A DNA stretch of 64,000 bases from Luteitalea sp. (GTDB lineage: Bacteria > Acidobacteriota > Vicinamibacteria > Vicinamibacterales > Vicinamibacteraceae): positions 1 to 64,000 of the forward strand of contig WHTT01000018.1 in the NCBI GenBank assembly GCA_009377605.1. Direction: 5' to 3'. Below, piece after piece: positions 15,732-58,290 of the stretch (positions are counted from its first letter, which is position 1; every line of letters starts with the position of its first letter). The translations under genes and the position numbers were made by a program. Under the pieces are notes generated by a model. The model saw nothing but the letters and a program-made list of their open reading frames with translations. It did not search any database and was not told the DNA's origin.

Positions 15732-17006
15732 CTAGCTCTCGAGCAGCAACTGACCGGGATCCTCGATGAACTCTTTGATCTTTACGAGGAACTGGACCGC
15801 CTCGCGTCCGTCGACCATCCGGTGATCATAGGTGAGCGCCACGTACATCATTGACTTCACGACGACCTGACCACTCACAGCAATCGGACGCTCTTCCATC
15901 TTGTGTAGCCCGAGGATACCGACTTGCGGCGGGTTGAGGATAGGCGTGCTCAGCAGCGACCCAAAGACGCCCCCGTTGGTAATGGTGAACGTGCCGCCGC
16001 GCAGATCCTCGAGGGTGAGCTGGCCCTCCCTGGAGCGTGTTGCGAAGTCTTGGACCGCGCGCTCCATATCGACGAAAGTCATCAGCTCGGCATTGTGCAG
16101 CACTGGCACGACGAGGCCCCCCTCGGCGCCAACCGCCACACCGATGTCGTAGTAGTGCTTGAGGACGATCTCCTCACCTTGAATCTCCCCGTTGAGGCGA
16201 GGGAATGCCCTGAGTGCGCCGATCGCCGCCTTCACGAAGAAAGAGGTGATCCCGAGGCTCACGCCGTACTGCTTCTGGAAGGCTTCTTTGCGCCGCTTTC
16301 GCAGCTCGATGATCGCGCTCATGTCGACCTCGTTGAAGGTCGTGAGCATCGCCGCGGTCTGTTGCGCCGTCACGAGGTTGCGGGCAATCGTTAGACGCCG
16401 CTTGGACATGCGCGAGCGCTCCTCGCCTCGCTCACCGGGCGCGACACGCCGGGGCGCCGCGGCAGGAGGAGCAGCGGTCGGGCGCGGAACGGCTACCGGG
16501 CGAGCGGGGGCAGCGCCAGACGCCGTCGTCTCGGCCGGCTCCGCTGTTCGTCGAGCGCGATCGACGAACGACTCGACATCGCGCCGCATCACGCGGCCCG
16601 CTTCGCCGCTGGGTGGCACGGTGGCGACGTCCACCGCGTGCGCCGCCGCCACGCGCTTGGCGGTTGGCGTGGTTCGCCCGCCTTCGCTCGCCTCCGGCGA
16701 GCTACGGCGAGGCAAGCCCGTTTCCTGTTTCCCGCTTCCTGTTTCCGGTTTCCCGACTCCTGCTTCCTGAGATTCCTCGATGGTGCCGAGCTGTTCCCCA
16801 ACCTTCACATCCTCGCCCGCCTGGCGGACGATCTTTGCCAGGACGCCGGAGCGCTCGGCGCCCACCTCGACGTCAATCTTCTCGGTCTCCAACTCCACGA
16901 CCGGTTCTCCAACGCTCACCGCGTCACCTTCCGCCTTCAACCAGCGCGCGACGCGCGCCTCCACGACCGACTCACCGAGCTGTGGAACCACGATACTTGC
17001 CGACAC
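15732..17006 (-). CDS. sucB: 2-oxoglutarate dehydrogenase E2, dihydrolipoyl succinyltransferase
   Basis: E2 core of the 2-oxoglutarate dehydrogenase complex (TCA cycle), cytoplasmic. Order: lipoyl domain with the modified Lys in ELETEKIDVEVGAE, a low-complexity linker, a peripheral-subunit-binding domain (TPTAKRVAAAHAVDVATV, GRVMRRDVESFV), a Pro/Ala linker, and the catalytic domain ending with the active-site DHRMVDGREAVQF. GTG at 17006 is preferred over GTG 17012 because AGAAGGAG is then correctly spaced; with 17012 the Shine-Dalgarno abuts the start. The first linker is encoded by eight heptamers of an intergenic-type repeat (16721-16776), giving the odd GKPETGSGKQETG sequence. It lies just downstream of sucA, same strand. 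Confidence 0.92.
   Translation of the reverse strand: MSASIVVPQLGESVVEARVARWLKAEGDAVSVGEPVVELETEKIDVEVGAERSGVLAKIVRQAGEDVKVGEQLGTIEESQEAGVGKPETGSGKQETGLPRRSSPEASEGGRTTPTAKRVAAAHAVDVATVPPSGEAGRVMRRDVESFVDRARRTAEPAETTASGAAPARPVAVPRPTAAPPAAAPRRVAPGERGEERSRMSKRRLTIARNLVTAQQTAAMLTTFNEVDMSAIIELRKRRKEAFQKQYGVSLGITSFFVKAAIGALRAFPRLNGEIQGEEIVLKHYYDIGVAVGAEGGLVVPVLHNAELMTFVDMERAVQDFATRSREGQLTLEDLRGGTFTITNGGVFGSLLSTPILNPPQVGILGLHKMEERPIAVSGQVVVKSMMYVALTYDHRMVDGREAVQFLVKIKEFIEDPGQLLLES
16721..16776. repeat. Heptamer array inside sucB linker
   Basis: Eight consecutive 7-bp units on the + strand (TTTCCTG, TTTCCCG, CTTCCTG, TTTCCGG, TTTCCCG, ACTCCTG, CTTCCTG, AGATTCC). The reverse complements (CAGGAAA, CAGGAAG) match the unit style of intergenic arrays at 50262-50310 and 43550-43577. 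In the sucB frame they encode the linker between lipoyl and subunit-binding domains. Confidence 0.75.
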
Positions 17007-22051: not shown

Positions 22052-22072
22052 GGCGCGTTCGCCGAACGCGCC
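22052..22072. repeat. Palindromic repeat, hairpin A type
   Basis: Arms GGCGCGTTC and GAACGCGCC around GCC, preceded by GAGGTAGG. With the following hairpin (22091-22121) it makes a two-hairpin composite like those at 40431-40505 and 50408-50468. Confidence 0.7.
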
Positions 22073-22090
22073 GTCCGGACACCTCGGTAA

Positions 22091-22121
22091 GGGAGGGCCG
22101 CCTCGGCGAGGCGGCCCTCCC
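22091..22121 (-). terminator. Strong hairpin downstream of glnN
   Basis: Fourteen-base arms 22091-22104 (GGGAGGGCCGCCTC) and 22108-22121 with a GGC loop end two bases from the glnN stop (22124). Position fits a terminator for glnN on the minus strand, although it lacks a T-run and is also a member of the genome's GGCCGCCTC/GAGGCGGCC repeat family. Confidence 0.6.
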
Positions 22122-24545: not shown

Positions 24546-24601
24546 CGAAAAGGAACCGGGTATCTTTTCGGTCGCGAAAAGGTACCCGGTTCCTTTTTTC
24601 G
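24546..24601 (-). terminator. Hairpin downstream of parC (second GGAACCGGGTACC copy)
   Basis: Two near-complementary arms (24546-24570 and about 24574-24601) share the AAAAGGAACCGGGTA core with the hairpin at 2790-2840 and end in an A/T run. It lies 10 bases after the parC stop on the minus strand, so it can terminate parC transcription. Copies at two unrelated loci show it is a dispersed element. Confidence 0.7.
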
Positions 24602-27041: not shown

Positions 27042-27102
27042 CGTAGCGCAGGGCTTTTAGCCCTGCCAAGGACTGTGGGCAGGCCTAAAGGCCTGCGCTA
27101 CG
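27042..27102. repeat. Composite palindrome (CGTAGCGCAGG...CCTGCGCTACG)
   Basis: Outer arms 27042-27052 and 27092-27102 enclose two smaller palindromes (27048-27066 and 27079-27096: GCAGGGC..GCCCTGC and GCAGGCC..GGCCTGC). It occupies the gap between parC and the downstream flavoprotein gene. A relative sits at 60556-60609. Confidence 0.75.
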
Positions 27103-28530: not shown

Positions 28531-28602
28531 GGTGACACGGTGACACGGTGACACGGTGACAAGGTGACAAGGTGACGGGGTGACGGGGTGACAAGGTGAT
28601 AA
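28531..28602. repeat. Octamer array GGTGACNN, nine units
   Basis: Nine phased 8-bp units: GGTGACAC x3, GGTGACAA x2, GGTGACGG x2, GGTGACAA, GGTGATAA. It is the left arm of an inverted pair with 28694-28725, spacer about 91 bases, in the gap between the MATE and flavoprotein genes (both minus strand). Confidence 0.9.
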
Positions 28603-28693
28603 GCAAGCTCGGACGCAGAACGTGCGCCAGCGCATTGGACCGACCCGCCACGCTTCTCGACCTGGACCTCCAGCATCCGACCACCCCCTCGCC

Positions 28694-28725
28694 TTGTCAC
28701 CCTATCACTCTGTCACCTTGTCACC
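28694..28725. repeat. Inverted partner octamer array
   Basis: Units TTGTCACC, CTATCACT, CTGTCACC, TTGTCACC are reverse complements of GGTGACAA-type units and end close to the MATE gene stop (28731). Pairs with 28531-28602 to give a long imperfect hairpin. Confidence 0.85.
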
Positions 28726-28730
28726 CCTGC

Positions 28731-33589: not shown

Positions 33590-35530
33590 TTAGCGGCCTT
33601 CTTCGAGATAGGTATACCCGCGGAGGCCTTCCTCGTAGAAGTTCAGCAGGCGGCCGGACTCTTCGTAATCGAGCTTGCCGTCGCGCACGGCGGTCTCGAC
33701 GTCGGTGCGTAACTTTCCGAGCAGCGCGTCCGCATTGAACTCGACGTAGTCGAGCACCTCGCGCACGGTATCTCCCTTGATCACATCGTCCAGCACGACC
33801 TCGTCATTGCCGTTGAGGCTGACGTGCACGGCGTTCGTGTCACCCAGGAGGTTGTGAAGGTCGCCCAGAATTTCCTGGTAGGCCCCGACCAGGAAGACAC
33901 CAAGATAGTAGGGCTCGCCGTTGAAGCCGTGCAACGGGAGCGTCCGCTTGACGTCCCGGCGATCGATGAACTGATCGATCTTGCCGTCGGAGTCGCACGT
34001 AATGTCCCCAATCACGCCACGCTTTCTGGGACGCTCATCGAGCCGGTGGATCGGCATGATCGGGAAGAGCTGCTTGATTGCCCAGCTATCCGGGATCGAC
34101 TGGAACAGCGAGAAGTTGCCGAAGTAGGTATCCGACAGGTAGTCATCCAACCCCTGCAGATCTTCCGGCACGTCGTCCATCTGCTGGACGAGCTTTTGCA
34201 GCTTGACACAGATCGCCCAGTACAGATTTTCAGCCATGCAGCGCTGATCGAGCGATAGATAGCCGCCGGCAAAGAGGTTCAAGGCCATATCGAGCGCCTG
34301 CTGCGCGTCGTGGTAGCTCTCGAGCGCATTGCGCGCCGTGACGTTGTGGTAGGCCTCGATGAGATCGACGAGCGGCTGCTCCATGTCATCGGTCGGCTCG
34401 GTCGGAATGCGCTCCTCACCGAAGCCGGATACGCCGAGCACGTTGAAGACGAGCACGCTGTGGTACGCCACCACCGCCCGCCCACTCTCAGAAACAATGG
34501 TGGGGTGGGGCACCTCCGCCTCATCGCACACGGTCTGGACGTGGTAGACGACGTCGTTTGCGTACTCCTCGAGGGTGTAGTTGGTGCTCGACTCGAAGTT
34601 CGTCTGCGAGCCGTCGTAATCAACGCCGAGCCCGCCGCCGACGTCGAGGTACTCGAGGCCGGCGCCCGCCTTGGCCAGCTCGGCGTAGATGCGCGCCGCT
34701 TCGACCAGCGCCCCCTTGATGATCCGAATATTCGGGATCTGGCTGCCGAGGTGAAAATGGAGCAGCTTGAAACAGTCGGCCATGCCGCGCGCCTTCAGCT
34801 CCTCCAACCCACGGAGCATCTCGGCAACCGTGAGGCCGAACTTCGATCGGTACCCGGCCGATGAGTGCCAGCGGCCACTCCCTCGCGACGCCAGCTTTAC
34901 GCGCATGCCAATCGTCGGCCGCACGCCGACGCGTGCCGAGTACTCGAGAATCAGGCCGAGCTCCGTGTACTTCTCTACGATGGGAATCACGCGGCGCCCT
35001 ATCTTCTGCGCCAACATCGCCATCTCGATGAACTCGGCATCCTTGAAGCCGTTGCAGACGATGGGCGTGTCGTTCGACGCCAGCGCAGCCACCGCCAACA
35101 GCTCCGGCTTGGAGCCCGCCTCCAGGCCAAATTGGTAGGGGCGGCCGAACTCCAGCACCTCTTCGACGACCTGCCGCTGCTGGTTCACCTTGATGGGATA
35201 CACGCACATGTAACGCCCGGTGTAGTTGTGTTGGGTGATGGCGTTTTGGAACGCCTCGTGAATCTCCTGGAGCCGATGGCGGAGAATGTCGCGAAATCGA
35301 ACGAGAATCGGCAAGTTGATGCCGCGCAGCTGGAGTCGATCGACGAGCTGTTTGAGATCGATCGCGCGCCGCGAGTCGCGCGTCGGGCAAACGAGGAGGT
35401 GCCCTTCCTCGCTGATGCGAAAGTACTCCTTGCCCCAGCGCTCCACCTCGTAGAGCTCCGTGGCTTCACTAATGTTCCAGGCGTCGGTCGCGCTCGTTCC
35501 GTGCACTGCTCGTGGGCTCGCAGCTCTCAT
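33590..35530 (-). CDS. speA: Biosynthetic arginine decarboxylase
   Basis: PLP-dependent arginine decarboxylase producing agmatine for polyamine synthesis; about 646 residues, standard for SpeA. N-terminal YEVERWGKEYFRISEEGHLL, PLP-Lys motif MCVYPIKVNQQRQVVEEV, HFHLGSQIPNIRIIKGALVE, the DVGGGLGVDYDGSQ loop, and C-terminal GVFLVGAYQEILGDLHNLLG with DTNAVHVS are present. ATG 35530 (MRAASPRA) is preferred; the open frame runs to 35599 but that extension is encoded by the GTGACGA heptamer array (giving SLVTRHSSL) and is unlikely to be protein. No Shine-Dalgarno is obvious. Followed 7 bases downstream by the convergent DUF349 stop. Confidence 0.92.
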   Translation of the reverse strand: MRAASPRAVHGTSATDAWNISEATELYEVERWGKEYFRISEEGHLLVCPTRDSRRAIDLKQLVDRLQLRGINLPILVRFRDILRHRLQEIHEAFQNAITQHNYTGRYMCVYPIKVNQQRQVVEEVLEFGRPYQFGLEAGSKPELLAVAALASNDTPIVCNGFKDAEFIEMAMLAQKIGRRVIPIVEKYTELGLILEYSARVGVRPTIGMRVKLASRGSGRWHSSAGYRSKFGLTVAEMLRGLEELKARGMADCFKLLHFHLGSQIPNIRIIKGALVEAARIYAELAKAGAGLEYLDVGGGLGVDYDGSQTNFESSTNYTLEEYANDVVYHVQTVCDEAEVPHPTIVSESGRAVVAYHSVLVFNVLGVSGFGEERIPTEPTDDMEQPLVDLIEAYHNVTARNALESYHDAQQALDMALNLFAGGYLSLDQRCMAENLYWAICVKLQKLVQQMDDVPEDLQGLDDYLSDTYFGNFSLFQSIPDSWAIKQLFPIMPIHRLDERPRKRGVIGDITCDSDGKIDQFIDRRDVKRTLPLHGFNGEPYYLGVFLVGAYQEILGDLHNLLGDTNAVHVSLNGNDEVVLDDVIKGDTVREVLDYVEFNADALLGKLRTDVETAVRDGKLDYEESGRLLNFYEEGLRGYTYLEEGR

Positions 35531-35550
35531 GGAAACATCATACAGAAAAA

Positions 35551-35578
35551 GTGACGAGTGACGAGTGACGAGTGACGA
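35551..35578. repeat. Heptamer array GTGACGA x4
   Basis: Four perfect head-to-tail 7-bp units immediately upstream of speA. Inverted partner at 35667-35699; spacer about 88 bases. Confidence 0.9.
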
Positions 35579-35666
35579 GCGGGCGCTTCGCAGCTCCATG
35601 GCTATCGTTGCGGCCGAAGCGAAGCGCCGATGCGATCTCCGTTAGCCCGAGCCCAAGGAGGCCCAC

Positions 35667-35699
35667 TCGTCACTCGTCACTCTTGTCGTCACTCGTCAC
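35667..35699. repeat. Inverted heptamer array TCGTCAC, four units
   Basis: Two TCGTCAC units (35667-35680), a 5-base break TCTTG, then two more (35686-35699). It is the inverted arm of 35551-35578 and contains the stop codon of the bactofilin gene (35696-35698). Confidence 0.88.
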
Positions 35700-36157
35700 T
35701 CTCTTCTCTCCCGCCGATACCGCGCCACGTGCGCAGCGGCCTCCATGTGGCGGCGGGTGACGAGGCGCGCACGGACGCTGGCGTTCTCGCTGAGTAGAAT
35801 GCGCTGGGCGGCTACCGCACCCACGACCGAGGCGGTGTCCCGGATGTCCACGATCTCGGTAGCGGTGACGCGGCCGGTCAACGCGCCGTGCACGGTCACG
35901 TCGCGAGCGAAGACCTTTGCGTGCACCTGCCCATCGTGAAGGATAGTCAGGCAGTGCTCAGGCAGGTCGATCTCACCGTCGAAACGGCCTTCAATGATGA
36001 GATCCTCCTCGGCCTTCAGCGTGCCCTTGATCAGAATCGTGCCAGGGATGCGGCAAACTGGAAGCCACGAGTTGCGGGTGTCCTCACGCTCTCGCGCAGA
36101 CTCGAGCGTACCGCCGACGCCATCGGGTGCCTTGAAAGAAACACTGGAGCTGCTCAT
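35696..36157 (-). CDS. Bactofilin (polymer-forming cytoskeletal protein)
   Basis: A 153-residue bactofilin/DUF583 protein: repeated beta-helix rungs such as GTILIKGTLKAEEDLIIEG, GEIDLPEHCLTILHDGQV, KVFARDVTVHGALTGRV, EIVDIRDTASVVGAV. Bactofilins self-assemble into filaments in the cytoplasm or at the membrane and help cell shape or envelope localisation. Disordered N- and C-terminal tails are typical. The Arg/Glu-rich last residues and stop codon come from the adjoining heptamer array. Same strand as speA but separated by paired repeats. Confidence 0.85.
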   Translation of the reverse strand: MSSSSVSFKAPDGVGGTLESAREREDTRNSWLPVCRIPGTILIKGTLKAEEDLIIEGRFDGEIDLPEHCLTILHDGQVHAKVFARDVTVHGALTGRVTATEIVDIRDTASVVGAVAAQRILLSENASVRARLVTRRHMEAAAHVARYRRERRE

Positions 36158-36186
36158 TCGGATTCAAGCCTCGCCCCTATCTTAAT

Positions 36187-36287
36187 GGTTCTTGGTCCTT
36201 GGTTCTTGGTTCTTGGTGCGCTCTGGCGTACAGCCGCTCCGCAATGTACTAGGCGCACCAAGAACCAAGAACCAAGGACCAAGGACC
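36187..36287. repeat. Inverted heptamer arrays (GGTTCTT / AAGAACC) forming a long hairpin
   Basis: Left units 36187-36221: GGTTCTT, GGTCCTT, GGTTCTT, GGTTCTT, GGTGCGC. Right units 36253-36287 are their reverse complement in the same nested order with one mismatch in 35 bp (28 bp perfect, 36194-36221 with 36253-36280); loop 31 bases. It sits directly after the amidohydrolase stop (36287-36289) and before bactofilin, so it may act as terminator for the minus-strand operon. Confidence 0.9.
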
Positions 36288-47604: not shown

Positions 47605-50259
47605 CTACTCCAAATCAGCCTTGAGCTCGGCGAGGAGCGCCAACGCCTCGAGCGGGGTCATCTGATCGATCTCAATCGAGCGGAGTCGCTCTGCCAGCTT
47701 GTCGTCTGGGCCGAGCGTCTGAAAGAGGCCGAGCTGCTGCCGCGCGTCATGGCCGCGTGGCATGCCGGTGAGCGACGGCCGTCCGCCGCGTTGGAGCTCG
47801 TCCTGCTCCAGCCCGCTGAGAATCTCGCGCGCACGCGCAATAACCGGCCGAGGCAGGCCGGCGAGGCGGGCGACCTGAATCCCGTAGCTGCGATCGGATC
47901 GGCCCGGAACGACCTTGCGGAGAAAGACGATCTGATCTTTCCACTCCCGCACCGTGAAGTGCGCGTTCACCACCGAAGGGAGCGCGTCCGCCAGATCCGT
48001 GAGCTCGTGATAATGCGTCGCAAAGAGCGTCTTGGGACGCGCACGCGCGTTCGTGGCCAGATACTCTGCAACCGCCCAGGCAATGCTCAAGCCGTCGAAC
48101 GTCGCGGTCCCGCGTCCAATCTCGTCCAGCACCACGAGGCTTCGCGCGGTCGCGGTATTGAGAATGCTCGCCGTCTCCTGCATCTCCGCCATGAACGTCG
48201 ACTGGCCGCGCGCGATGTTGTCCGACGCGCCGACGCGGGCGTAGATGCGGTCGACAATGGAAAGCTTCGCTTGGCGAGCGGGAACGAAGGAGCCCGCCTG
48301 TGCCATCAAGCAGGTGAGGGCGACTTGGCGCAAATACGTGGACTTGCCGCCCATGTTCGGGCCGGTGAGGATGGAGAGCTGTGCCGCGGTGTTGTCGAGC
48401 CGTGTGTCGTTTGGCACGAACGCCTCCCGCGACAGGCGCTCAACCACCGGATGCCGGCCGTCCACGATCTCCAGCTCGTCACCATCGTGCACCTGCGGTT
48501 TCGTATAGTTGTGGCGTGCGGCCACTTCGGCGAACGCGGCGAGCACGTCCAGCGCCGCCAGGGAGGTGGCGGTCCGCTGGATCCGTGGCGCCTCCAACGC
48601 GACCGCCTGGCGCAACGCGTCGAACATCTCGACTTCACGCACGAGCAGCCGCTCGTCGGCCCCCAGCACCCGCTCCTCCTGCTCCTTGAGTGCCGGTGTG
48701 ATGAAGCGCTCGCCGCCCGCGATGGTCTGTTTGCGCTGATAGTCGGGCGGCACGGCGTGAAGGTTGGCCTTCGAGACTTCGATGTAATACCCAAAGACCC
48801 GGTTGAAGCGCACCTTGAGAGACTGGATCCCGGTCCGCTGCCGCTCGGCCGCTTCGAGGCCGGCAATGCCCTGCTTGCCCGACCGACTGATGCCCCGCAG
48901 CTCGTCCACCTCACCATCCGCCCCATCCCGCACGAGACCTCCGTCTCGTGCCAACGCCGGTGGATCGTCGACGAGCGTGTGCGCGATCCGATCCCGGACG
49001 TCCGCGAGCTCGTCGAGCCCTTGGGCGAGCTCGCAGATGAGCGGTGACTGCAGCGCTTCGATGATGCGCCGAACACGTGGAACGGCCGCCAACGATTGCC
49101 GAAGGCCCACCAGGTCCCGCGGACCGGCAGTGCGAAGCGCGATGCGCGCGACAAGGCGCTCCATGTCGTGCACGGAACCGAGCGTCTCGCGCAGCTTGCC
49201 ACGCTCGACGGCACGAAACGCAAGATCTTCGACGGCGTCGAGACGCGCGTGCACCTGCGCCACATCAACGAGCGGCCGGAGCAGCCAGGCCCGGAGCCGC
49301 CGTGCCCCCATGGCCGTCGTCGTGTCATCGAGCACGTGCAGCAGTGAGCCTTCACGACTTCCATCGATTGCGCGCACCACCTCGAGATGGCTGAGCGTCG
49401 TGTTGTCCACGATCAGCGCGTCACGCTTCTCACGCCAACTCAGGCCGCGCACGTGTACCAAGTCGACTTTTTGCGTGTCTCGGAGGTAGTGGACGAGCGC
49501 ACCGGCGGCCGCAATCGCTGCCGTGTGGCCGTCCAATCCGAAGCCTTGCAGCCCGGCCACCTGAAGCTGATCGAGCAGCACGCGGGTCGCCGTGTCGAGA
49601 TTGAACGCCGACGGCTCGACCGCCGTGATCCGAAGCCCGTCCCGGTCGACATCGACCAGCAAGCGCTCGACGTCGCTGCCAGCAGGCACGAGCAACTCCC
49701 GCGCCCTGAGCAGCCGCAGCTCTTCGCCGAGCGCCTCCACGGCCCGATCGCCCTCGAGCTCGGTGACCGTGAACTCGCCGGTCGACGGCTCGAGCGTGGC
49801 CAAGCCCAAGAGCCGCCGTCCTTCGGTGGCGCGCGTCTCGATCGCGAGCGGCGCGAGCGCGGCCAGAAAGATCGGCTCTCGTGCGTCGAGGTAGCCAGCA
49901 TCGGTAAAGGTCCCAGGCGAGACCACACGAACAACCTCTCGCTTGACAATGCCCTTGGCCTGCTTGGGATCTTCGACCTGGTCGCAGATGGCCACACGGT
50001 GCCCCAGCTTGACGAGCCGCATCATGTAGCCGTCGATCGCATGATAGGGAACACCACACATCGGAATCCCGCCGCCGGCGCTGTCCTTCTGGCGCGCCGT
50101 GAGCGTGAGATCGAGCGCTCGGGACGCGACGAGCGCGTCCTCGTAGAACAGCTCGTAGAAATCGCCCATGCGAAAGAGCAGGAGCGCGTCGGGATACTGG
50201 CGCTTGGCCTCCTGATACTGTTGCATGGCCGGCGTGAGCGGCCGTGAGGGAGACGTCAT
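47605..50259 (-). CDS. mutS: DNA mismatch repair protein MutS
   Basis: An 884-residue MutS, normal length. N-terminal mismatch-binding motif LLFRMGDFYELFYEDA (Phe-x-Glu), connector and lever domains, ATPase Walker A TGPNMGGKSTYLRQ, Walker B LVVLDEIGRGTATFDG, and KTLFATHYHELTDL. It recognises mismatches and recruits MutL. The ATG is at 50259 and a degenerate heptamer array begins three bases upstream, so the leader is made largely of repeat and no Shine-Dalgarno is visible. Divergent from tsaB. Confidence 0.96.
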   Translation of the reverse strand: MTSPSRPLTPAMQQYQEAKRQYPDALLLFRMGDFYELFYEDALVASRALDLTLTARQKDSAGGGIPMCGVPYHAIDGYMMRLVKLGHRVAICDQVEDPKQAKGIVKREVVRVVSPGTFTDAGYLDAREPIFLAALAPLAIETRATEGRRLLGLATLEPSTGEFTVTELEGDRAVEALGEELRLLRARELLVPAGSDVERLLVDVDRDGLRITAVEPSAFNLDTATRVLLDQLQVAGLQGFGLDGHTAAIAAAGALVHYLRDTQKVDLVHVRGLSWREKRDALIVDNTTLSHLEVVRAIDGSREGSLLHVLDDTTTAMGARRLRAWLLRPLVDVAQVHARLDAVEDLAFRAVERGKLRETLGSVHDMERLVARIALRTAGPRDLVGLRQSLAAVPRVRRIIEALQSPLICELAQGLDELADVRDRIAHTLVDDPPALARDGGLVRDGADGEVDELRGISRSGKQGIAGLEAAERQRTGIQSLKVRFNRVFGYYIEVSKANLHAVPPDYQRKQTIAGGERFITPALKEQEERVLGADERLLVREVEMFDALRQAVALEAPRIQRTATSLAALDVLAAFAEVAARHNYTKPQVHDGDELEIVDGRHPVVERLSREAFVPNDTRLDNTAAQLSILTGPNMGGKSTYLRQVALTCLMAQAGSFVPARQAKLSIVDRIYARVGASDNIARGQSTFMAEMQETASILNTATARSLVVLDEIGRGTATFDGLSIAWAVAEYLATNARARPKTLFATHYHELTDLADALPSVVNAHFTVREWKDQIVFLRKVVPGRSDRSYGIQVARLAGLPRPVIARAREILSGLEQDELQRGGRPSLTGMPRGHDARQQLGLFQTLGPDDKLAERLRSIEIDQMTPLEALALLAELKADLE

Positions 50260-50261
50260 CA

Positions 50262-50345
50262 GGAATCGGGAATTGGGAATTGGGATTCAGGAAACAGGAA
50301 TCGGGATTCAGCGTTCAGAACGCAAGACTCAGAACTCAGAAACTC
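50262..50345. repeat. Degenerate heptamer array upstream of mutS
   Basis: About twelve phased 7-bp units starting GGAATCG, GGAATTG, GGAATTG, GGATTCA, GGAAACA, GGAATCG, GGATTCA and decaying toward GAACTCA/GAAACTC. It starts next to the mutS ATG. Confidence 0.8.
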
Positions 50346-50407: not shown

Positions 50408-50468
50408 GGCGCGTTCGGCGAACGCGCCCTACCATAGACGAGGGTAGGGCCGCCTCGCCGAGGCGGCC
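50408..50468. repeat. Two-hairpin BIME-like repeat upstream of tsaB
   Basis: Hairpin GGCGCGTTC-GGC-GAACGCGCC (50408-50428) and hairpin GGCCGCCTC-GCC-GAGGCGGCC (50448-50468), joined by CCTACC...GGGTAGG. It ends 17 bases before the tsaB start. Same two modules as 22052-22121. Confidence 0.75.
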
Positions 50469-50485
50469 GCTAGGTACACGAAACC

Positions 50486-53136: not shown

Positions 53137-53928
53137 GTGTTGACCGTTCTCCAAAGACGACCGCCCGCGTCGCGCCGGTTCCGGCGCGGCACCTACCTGC
53201 TGCCGAGCCTGTTCACGCTTGCGAACATGTTCTGCGGCTACGCGTGCATCATCTACGCGATGCGTGGCGAGTATGTCACCGCCGCCCCCTTCATCGGCGT
53301 GGCCATGGTTCTCGACATGCTCGATGGCCGCATTGCCCGGCTCACGAAGACCTCGAGCGCCTTTGGTGTGGAGTTCGACTCTCTGGCAGACGTCATCTCG
53401 TTTGGCGTCGCACCAGCCGTGCTCGCGCTGGCGTGGGGGTTGACACCGATGGGACGGGTTGGCTGGGTCACCGGCTTCATTTACGTGTCGGCCGTGGCTA
53501 TCCGCCTGGCGCGCTTCAATATCCAGAGCTCGGCAAATCCGGACAAACGCTACTTCGCTGGGATGCCCTGCCCGCCGGCCGCGGGTGTGGTGGCAGCAAC
53601 CGTGTTCGCCTGGCCCTACGGCCTCACCGCCTGGCACGGCGTGTTGGCGTTACCGCTCTTGCTCGTCCCGGCCCTCCTGATGGTGAGCACGATCCGCTAT
53701 CGCAGCTTCAAGACCTTCGACCTCCGGAAGCGCCGCTCCTACCGAAATCTCATCTTCCTCGCCTTGATGATCGCCGCCATCGCGGCGGAGCCGCAGGGGA
53801 CGCTCGTCTTGATGGCCTACACGTACCTGCTGTCTGGTCTGGTCGGCTACGCCTGGACGCGGGTCCGTCGCAAGCCGGAATCGGCAGCGCCGGCTCATGA
53901 CGAAGCGGCGAGGAGGGTGAGGGGGTGA
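53137..53928 (+). CDS. pssA: CDP-diacylglycerol-serine O-phosphatidyltransferase
   Basis: A membrane CDP-alcohol phosphatidyltransferase making phosphatidylserine, the substrate for Psd. About 263 residues, 7-8 hydrophobic helices: YLLPSLFTLANMFCGYACII, catalytic DGRIARLTKTSSAFG-VEFDSLAD matching DGxxAR-x8-Gx3Dx3D. GTG at 53137 lies one base after the psd stop (TTG 53140 is also possible). The last residues (RRVRG) and TGA are encoded by the octamer array that begins at 53916. Confidence 0.92.
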   Translation: MLTVLQRRPPASRRFRRGTYLLPSLFTLANMFCGYACIIYAMRGEYVTAAPFIGVAMVLDMLDGRIARLTKTSSAFGVEFDSLADVISFGVAPAVLALAWGLTPMGRVGWVTGFIYVSAVAIRLARFNIQSSANPDKRYFAGMPCPPAAGVVAATVFAWPYGLTAWHGVLALPLLLVPALLMVSTIRYRSFKTFDLRKRRSYRNLIFLALMIAAIAAEPQGTLVLMAYTYLLSGLVGYAWTRVRRKPESAAPAHDEAARRVRG

Positions 53929-53979
53929 CAGGGTGAGGGGGTGACAAGGTGACAAGGTGACAAGGTGACAGGGTAATCG
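53916..53979. repeat. Octamer array GGTGACAA, left arm
   Basis: Units in order: GGTGAGGG, GGTGACAG, GGTGAGGG, GGTGACAA x3, GGTGACAG, then a decayed unit. 53924-53963 is a perfect inverted repeat of 54081-54120. It contains the pssA stop codon. Confidence 0.92.
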
Positions 53980-54064
53980 GGGTGCAGGTCCCAGCAACGT
54001 AGCCTCTCGTGCAACCACAAGCCAGCGGCGCCGCGCCACGTGCGCTCGAATAACCCCGCTCACC

Positions 54065-54120
54065 TTGTCACCTTGTCACCTTGTCACCTTGTCACCTTGT
54101 CACCCCCTCACCCTGTCACC
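54065..54120. repeat. Octamer array TTGTCACC, right arm
   Basis: TTGTCACC x5, CCCTCACC, CTGTCACC. Read as reverse complement it is GGTGACAG, GGTGAGGG, GGTGACAA x5, the same unit order as the left arm. It contains the stop codon of the histidine kinase (54100-54102). Confidence 0.92.
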
Positions 54121-58190: not shown

Positions 58191-58242
58191 CACCTTGTCA
58201 CCCCATCACCCGGTCACTCCGTCACCCGGTCACCCGGTCACC
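58191..58242. repeat. Unpaired octamer array (NNGTCACC type)
   Basis: About six 8-bp units: TTGTCACC, CCATCACC, CGGTCACT, CCGTCACC, CGGTCACC x2, in the divergent gap between the histidine kinase and the membrane protein. No inverted partner is visible nearby. TATACT at 58249-58254 just after it could be a -10 for the + strand gene. Confidence 0.8.
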
Positions 58243-58290
58243 CGGTGCTATACTGCGAGACAGGGTGGCCTCGCGGCCGCCCTTTGCTGC

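Follow-up and report, generated by a model that had tools for sequence, protein, structure and literature searches.

GGGAATC heptamer repeats of Xanthomonas and Nostoc are intergenic and form 70-75 convergent pairs, each with one repeat on the plus strand and the other on the minus strand (Rehm et al. 2015, PMC4692102). The Xanthomonas repeats lie at most 50 bp from stop codons or overlap them, are rare between divergent genes, and form quadruplexes in vitro when supplied as oligonucleotides; no source was given for the convergent pairs (PMC4692102). TAACTGA repeats, in turn, lie mostly directly upstream of start codons, with only one inverted case described for the genome concerned (PMC4679880). 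The intervening sequence of Coxiella 23S rRNA has terminal inverted repeats, a long stem and a four-helix-bundle ORF in the loop, preceded by tandem heptamers (GACAGAT), and has been termed a selfish element (PMC4990558). In addition, REPINs are short intergenic inverted-repeat hairpins that come in hundreds, together with one or few protein genes (RAYT) flanked in the same way (PMC3116915).

The locus analysed here lies in a 64,000-nucleotide stretch (hereafter the window) of a Luteitalea sp. genome (G000; 6.79 Mb, 382 contigs). Array statistics were taken from 1.66 of the 6.79 Mb and were complemented by whole-genome pattern counts. Heptamer arrays have been reported for decades from cyanobacteria, xanthomonads and Beggiatoaceae, and to our knowledge their source has remained unexplained.

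Array block between pssA and a histidine kinase gene

The 3' ends of two genes meet in a block of inverted octamer arrays at 53915-54120, with the following features (gene stops are exact and starts approximate, as obtained by ORF calling):

53137-53928, plus strand: pssA-like CDP-alcohol phosphatidyltransferase gene (PF01066), 3' end within the left arm
53915-53974, plus strand: left arm, period-8 array of GGTGACAA/GGTGACAG/GGTGAGGG units, containing the pssA stop codon
53975-54059: spacer (loop) of 85 bp, one copy in its own genome
54060-54120, minus strand: right arm, a period-8 array of the left arm's unit family in opposite orientation, containing the histidine kinase stop codon
54100-58125, minus strand: histidine kinase gene (HAMP, HisKA, HATPase_c), 3' end within the right arm

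The perfect 40-bp inverted repeat of octamers named in the original prediction was found at 53924-53963 / 54081-54120. It is longer at lower identity, forming a 51-nt inverted repeat of 98% identity (53924-53974 / 54070-54120, 95 nt apart) and reaching 68 nt at 85% identity. The repeat consists of GGTGACNN octamers, and both period-8 arrays were also picked up by TRF. A placement strictly between pssA and the kinase needs correction, as both stop codons lie inside the arrays: the TGA of pssA (53926-53928) within the left array and the minus-strand TGA of the kinase (54100-54102) within the right.

The block contains no ORF, and no known RNA family was found in the window (Rfam). RNA of either strand is predicted to form a hairpin of about -158 kcal/mol, with a folding z of about -14 on both strands. 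An intrinsic terminator was considered and rejected, as neither the right arm nor, read on the opposite strand, the left arm is followed by a T run. The spacer was likewise rejected as a dispersed family: it is single-copy in its own genome, no array-flanked second copy was found in seven relatives, and a 78% match in the relative G003 sits in array-free sequence. The arrays also lengthen the pssA reading frame (53880-53928; L032), giving the tail ARRVRG here and a GTCAGGG-derived tail in the sister species.

Further repeats in the window

Similar paired arrays had been noted at three more places in the original prediction, and TRF confirmed inverted pairs at 28531/28695, 35550/35664 and 36186/36257, together with single arrays near 16720, 43551, 50258 and 58198:

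28531-28726: second GGTGACNN inverted pair; right arm only in the sister species
35550-35701: GAGTGAC inverted pair; sister species without the block
36186-36287: inverted pair of TGGTTCT/TGGTCCT units, 35 nt at 97%, directly abutting a stop codon
43551-43581, plus strand: single GATTCCT array; the orthologous sister-species gap has inverted GGTGCTG arrays enclosing a four-helix-bundle gene
50258-50306: single array of the GGAATTG/GGAATCG type, flanked by mutS and a tsaD-like gene in divergent orientation
58198-58246, minus strand: single GTCACCCG array, where the sister species carries an inverted pair built from a different unit

Other repeats accompany these. Palindromes of the form AAAAGGAACCGGGTAYCTTTT...CGGTTCCTTTT with a short loop are dispersed, occurring at two gene ends in the window (24548-24597 and 2791-2839), and constitute a separate intergenic hairpin family without arrays. 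A REP-like repeat, GTAGGGCCGCCTCGGCGAGGCGGCCG, is present at 22061-22118, 50444-50469, L110:18600-18722 and in about 30 further stretches, amounting to dozens of copies in the sampled genome, one of them inside the spacer of an array block. The hairpin CGTAGCGCAGGGCTTTTAGCC / GGCCTAAAGGCCTGCGCTACG, located between two genes at 27042-27102, is not of the array type.

Genome-wide pairing and position

The pssA-kinase feature belongs to a large family of dispersed hairpin elements at gene ends, whose arms are built from tandem 7-8 bp units. A search for phased arrays yielded 127 with a 7- or 8-bp period in 1.66 Mb compared with 0 in third-order Markov shuffles, and other periods gave few arrays in the same 1.66 Mb. 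Genome-wide, GGTGACNNGGTGACNNGGTGA had 282 matches and the reversed pattern 0. Five main unit families were distinguished: GGTGACAA, AAGGGATC, GAGGTTC, GGTCCTT/GGTTCTT and GAGTGAC.

The systematic inverted pairing at gene ends anticipated in the original prediction proved to be far above chance and of one polarity. Neighbouring array pairs were inverted in 31 of 32 cases, with the G-rich strand inward in every one and across five unit families, and the two arms shared a unit family in 30 of the 31 inverted pairs, the right arm of the remaining pair being untypable. Unpaired arrays had an inverted partner at p<=0.05 on the inner side in 35/66 cases and on the outer side in 3/66, so that partners lie almost exclusively 3' of the G-rich strand. 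The distance from the outer end of an arm to the facing stop codon had a median of -1 bp; it was at most 20 bp in 31/36 cases, and the stop lay inside the arm in 19/36. The corresponding distance to a facing start was 60 bp (stop versus start, p=3e-9). Convergent gaps were over-represented (10/30, versus 17% of all gaps; p=0.03), and divergent gaps held 4 of 31 pairs. The layout of the family comprises two inverted arms of 7- or 8-bp units around a 30-160-bp spacer, flush with stop codons.

Differences from the sister species and dispersed copies

The sister species (G001), whose pssA protein is 87% identical, lacks blocks in the gaps orthologous to 36158-36286 and 35507-35695, where the window carries whole insertions; the pair at 36186-36287 is a clean insertion of about 97 bp relative to this species. 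The counterpart of the 28511 gap has one arm (the right) only, and other units occupy the pssA gap and the site corresponding to 58126. Random array order in relatives, named in the original prediction as telling against it, was found in part, namely as this different unit in the orthologous pssA gap. Where the pssA-kinase order is conserved in more distant relatives, the gap is short and free of arrays. Furthermore, spacer and arm family recur together amid unrelated flanks for three blocks, at L066/L071 (98%), L062/L156 (78%) and L103/L112 (83%). Blocks therefore appear, vanish and spread as units and behave as mobile units, on the evidence of the whole-insertion differences between sister species and the dispersed copies of these three blocks.

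A gene family enclosed by the arms

The gene found between inverted GGTGCTG arrays in one G001 gap encodes a four-helix-bundle protein of the family PF05635/TIGR02436 (23S rRNA intervening-sequence protein, IVP/S23p; Avd-like). We take this protein to be a pentameric helical bundle related to a retroelement accessory protein (Avd), and we know of no function, catalytic activity or nuclease assigned to the family. A solved structure of the family, Xcc0516 (2gsc), comes from a species among those of Rehm et al. As a candidate Avd equivalog of diversity-generating retroelements (DGR), the gene was rejected: the L168 protein scored 20.2 bits against DivGenRetAVD (cut-off 80) and 21.6 against bAvd (cut-off 40).

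PF05635 genes were present in all eight related genomes searched. Most of the 30 loci in these genomes lay between inverted 7/8-mer arms, with a unit that varied between loci, and about 1% of control genes scored as high as the boxed loci. In a wider scan of GTDB genomes, 80 four-helix-bundle loci from many phyla were collected, of which 74 were testable. Inverted arms scoring 16 or more were present at 50/74 loci, compared with 7/413 shifted windows of the same loci (p=5e-42). The arm 5' of the gene was the G-rich one in 43 cases against 5, the polarity seen in gene-free pairs, and AT-rich units such as AGTCATT and TTTAGGT were common at these loci. No rRNA was detected by Rfam in the window or in the 20 cassette loci checked. 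Among 30 tandem gaps (L195-L274; rough ORF calls), the gene was co-directional with its neighbours in 26 and opposed in 4; this shared direction may reflect an RNA step or a dependence on read-through transcription.

The window's genome carries two four-helix-bundle genes, boxed by GGGTCTAG and GGTGACNN arms, its two commonest families. Like the pssA block, one cassette lies between two gene ends; in the other, a short spacer contains a truncated gene. A cassette unit that is also the commonest array of its genome was found in Luteimonas (GGGAATC) as well as in the window's genome. As a general rule this was rejected, failing for TTCGTGA (G153) and AGTCATT (G155), and the cassette unit was not abundant elsewhere in two of three genomes tested. 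Gene and array numbers are not proportional: arrays are most numerous in the window's genome, with its two genes (one broken), and few in the 80 kb sampled from the relative G002, with its ten. A profile search of gene-free spacers for decayed four-helix-bundle genes returned one true case (L178), the remaining hits matching the noise of control gaps. With a gene remnant in only one tested spacer, most gene-free blocks are not recent deletion derivatives. No literature tying PF05635/TIGR02436 genes to heptamer arrays was found, subscription papers being outside the scope of the search, and the link is new as far as the searched literature shows.

Association in Xanthomonadaceae

Forty Xanthomonadaceae genomes, which are not phylogenetically independent, were compared, with the four-helix-bundle gene in 23 and absent from 17. 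Inverted arms enclosed 25 of 30 loci in this family, 13 of them of the GGGA(A/T)TC type. At least 15 GGGAATC/GGGATTC array matches were present in 12/23 genomes with the gene and 0/17 without it (p=3e-4), and the counts also differed by gene presence in a Mann-Whitney comparison (p=5e-4). One genome without the gene has 12 such matches. GGAACGA arrays were almost absent from these Xanthomonadaceae genomes. Outside the phylum of Xanthomonas, GGGAATC occurs in the relatives G002 and G003 with 20 and 36 matches, through either convergence or transfer.

Origin of the blocks

On balance, it is somewhat probable that the blocks are dispersed hairpin elements that arrive as units, and that those without a gene are non-autonomous and depend on the four-helix-bundle protein. 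Under this explanation, blocks would insert whole, after which slippage would alter the number and variants of the units in each arm separately. Full-length forms would bear the PF05635/TIGR02436 gene in the loop, and gene-free blocks, including that at pssA, would most likely be non-autonomous, with a dependence on the protein analogous to that of REPINs on RAYT. We infer that the protein mobilizes or lengthens arrays by working on the hairpin, in the form of either RNA or folded single-stranded DNA. It presumably recognizes the folded hairpin and not a fixed sequence, which would account for the changeable unit; slippage would then lengthen the arrays, and new blocks would be inserted. Blocks may survive only where they are harmless, and persistence of this kind is proposed as the reason why they fit against stop codons and keep farther from promoters. 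The hairpin predicted at pssA would mark and protect the 3' ends of both transcripts or, by analogy with 23S intervening sequences, be a likely target of RNase III. Counting against this explanation are the rarity of gene remnants in gene-free spacers, the poor match between gene and array numbers, cassette units that are not always the main unit of their genome, a protein family to which no catalytic activity is known to belong, the phylogenetic non-independence of the Xanthomonadaceae genomes and the gene-less genome among them with 12 matches.

A rather unlikely alternative is growth in place: terminator-like hairpins at gene ends would expand by replication slippage under selection for the stem, nothing would move, and the genes would be guests in the loop. 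The arms lie flush with stop codons and vary independently, and different species carry different unit families at one gap, which would fit such growth; some empty sister-species sites also have short unit matches (AGTGA...ACTC at 35547; TGGTT at 36187). However, the same spacer and arms at unrelated loci are not expected from it, and a terminator origin is at odds with the missing T run after the right arm and with the four of 31 pairs located in divergent gaps, which need no terminator. It also leaves unexplained why one gene family is boxed by arms in many phyla and why gene and arrays are associated at the genome level.

A very unlikely reading takes the arrays as G-quadruplex elements, a role proposed for the GGGAATC repeats of Xanthomonas, and regards the inverted partner as secondary. 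The G-rich strand has a fixed orientation, the left arm at pssA carries five G runs of length at least 3, and Xanthomonas oligonucleotides fold in this way in vitro (PMC4692102); however, GG-only units (GGTCCTT, GAGTGAC) and AT-rich units keep both pairing and polarity.

Least probable of all is the explanation put forward in the original prediction, in which matching variant order means that one arm was probably copied inverted from the other; template switching or conversion would be the route. The perfect 40-bp match at pssA and the unit order at L071, the one pair with significant order (p=0.002), would fit, but arms resembled their own partner no more than arms of that family at other places (mean rank 0.49, p=0.54, 30 pairs) and unit-order permutation gave a combined p of 0.68. 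The matching variant order at the pssA pair itself did not differ significantly from permuted units (p=0.084). The arms have a unit family in common, not a copied order, and drift independently.

If the explanation by mobile hairpin blocks is true, it would account for the origin of many intergenic hairpins and of variable protein C-termini, and the joint occurrence of arrays and four-helix-bundle genes at most loci tested makes both of them testable. Boxed four-helix-bundle genes in many phyla suggest a widespread and previously unconnected kind of selfish element. More tentatively, and with less confidence than we place in the mobile-block explanation, the four-helix-bundle proteins may be the trans-acting factor of bacteria-wide selfish elements that build and spread inverted 7-8-bp arrays at gene ends, probably working through folded RNA or a single-stranded intermediate, of which the cyanobacterial and xanthomonad repeats would be non-autonomous offspring.

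Relation to described systems

The likeness to cyanobacterial short tandemly repeated heptamers (STRRs) noted in the original prediction is borne out, as these too are intergenic 7-mer arrays found genome-wide (PMC4679880). The Xanthomonas-type repeats share more with the elements described here: short G-rich tandem units, mainly intergenic and many per genome, and convergent inverted pairs near stop codons. Their unit, GGGAATC or GGGGA(C/T)T, differs, however; the window's genome has 0 matches of GGGAATCGGGAATCGGGA and uses GGTGACAA and others. Whereas the Xanthomonas repeats have one unit, five or more 7-/8-mer families coexist here, together with dispersed spacer copies. The link to a four-helix-bundle gene is made here and is absent from Rehm et al. 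(PMC4692102), and the Xanthomonas unit GGGAATC itself flanks such a gene in Luteimonas and Rhodanobacter.

With the 23S rRNA intervening sequences, the full cassettes, unlike the pssA block, share a four-helix-bundle ORF within terminal inverted repeats. Those sequences reside in 23S rRNA, whereas the elements described here lie between protein genes, have arms made of tandem arrays, and in most copies lack an ORF. REPINs resemble these elements in their many copies, their dispersal and their hairpin form made from short inverted repeats. Their partner RAYT is a Y1 nuclease tied to a fixed REP sequence. In contrast, the gene boxed by arms here belongs to PF05635/TIGR02436 and is not a Y1 (HUH) transposase gene, and the arm unit differs from one locus or species to the next. 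Collectively, a family of selfish elements that is REPIN-like and IVS-like, with arrays for arms, is the best reading of these blocks.
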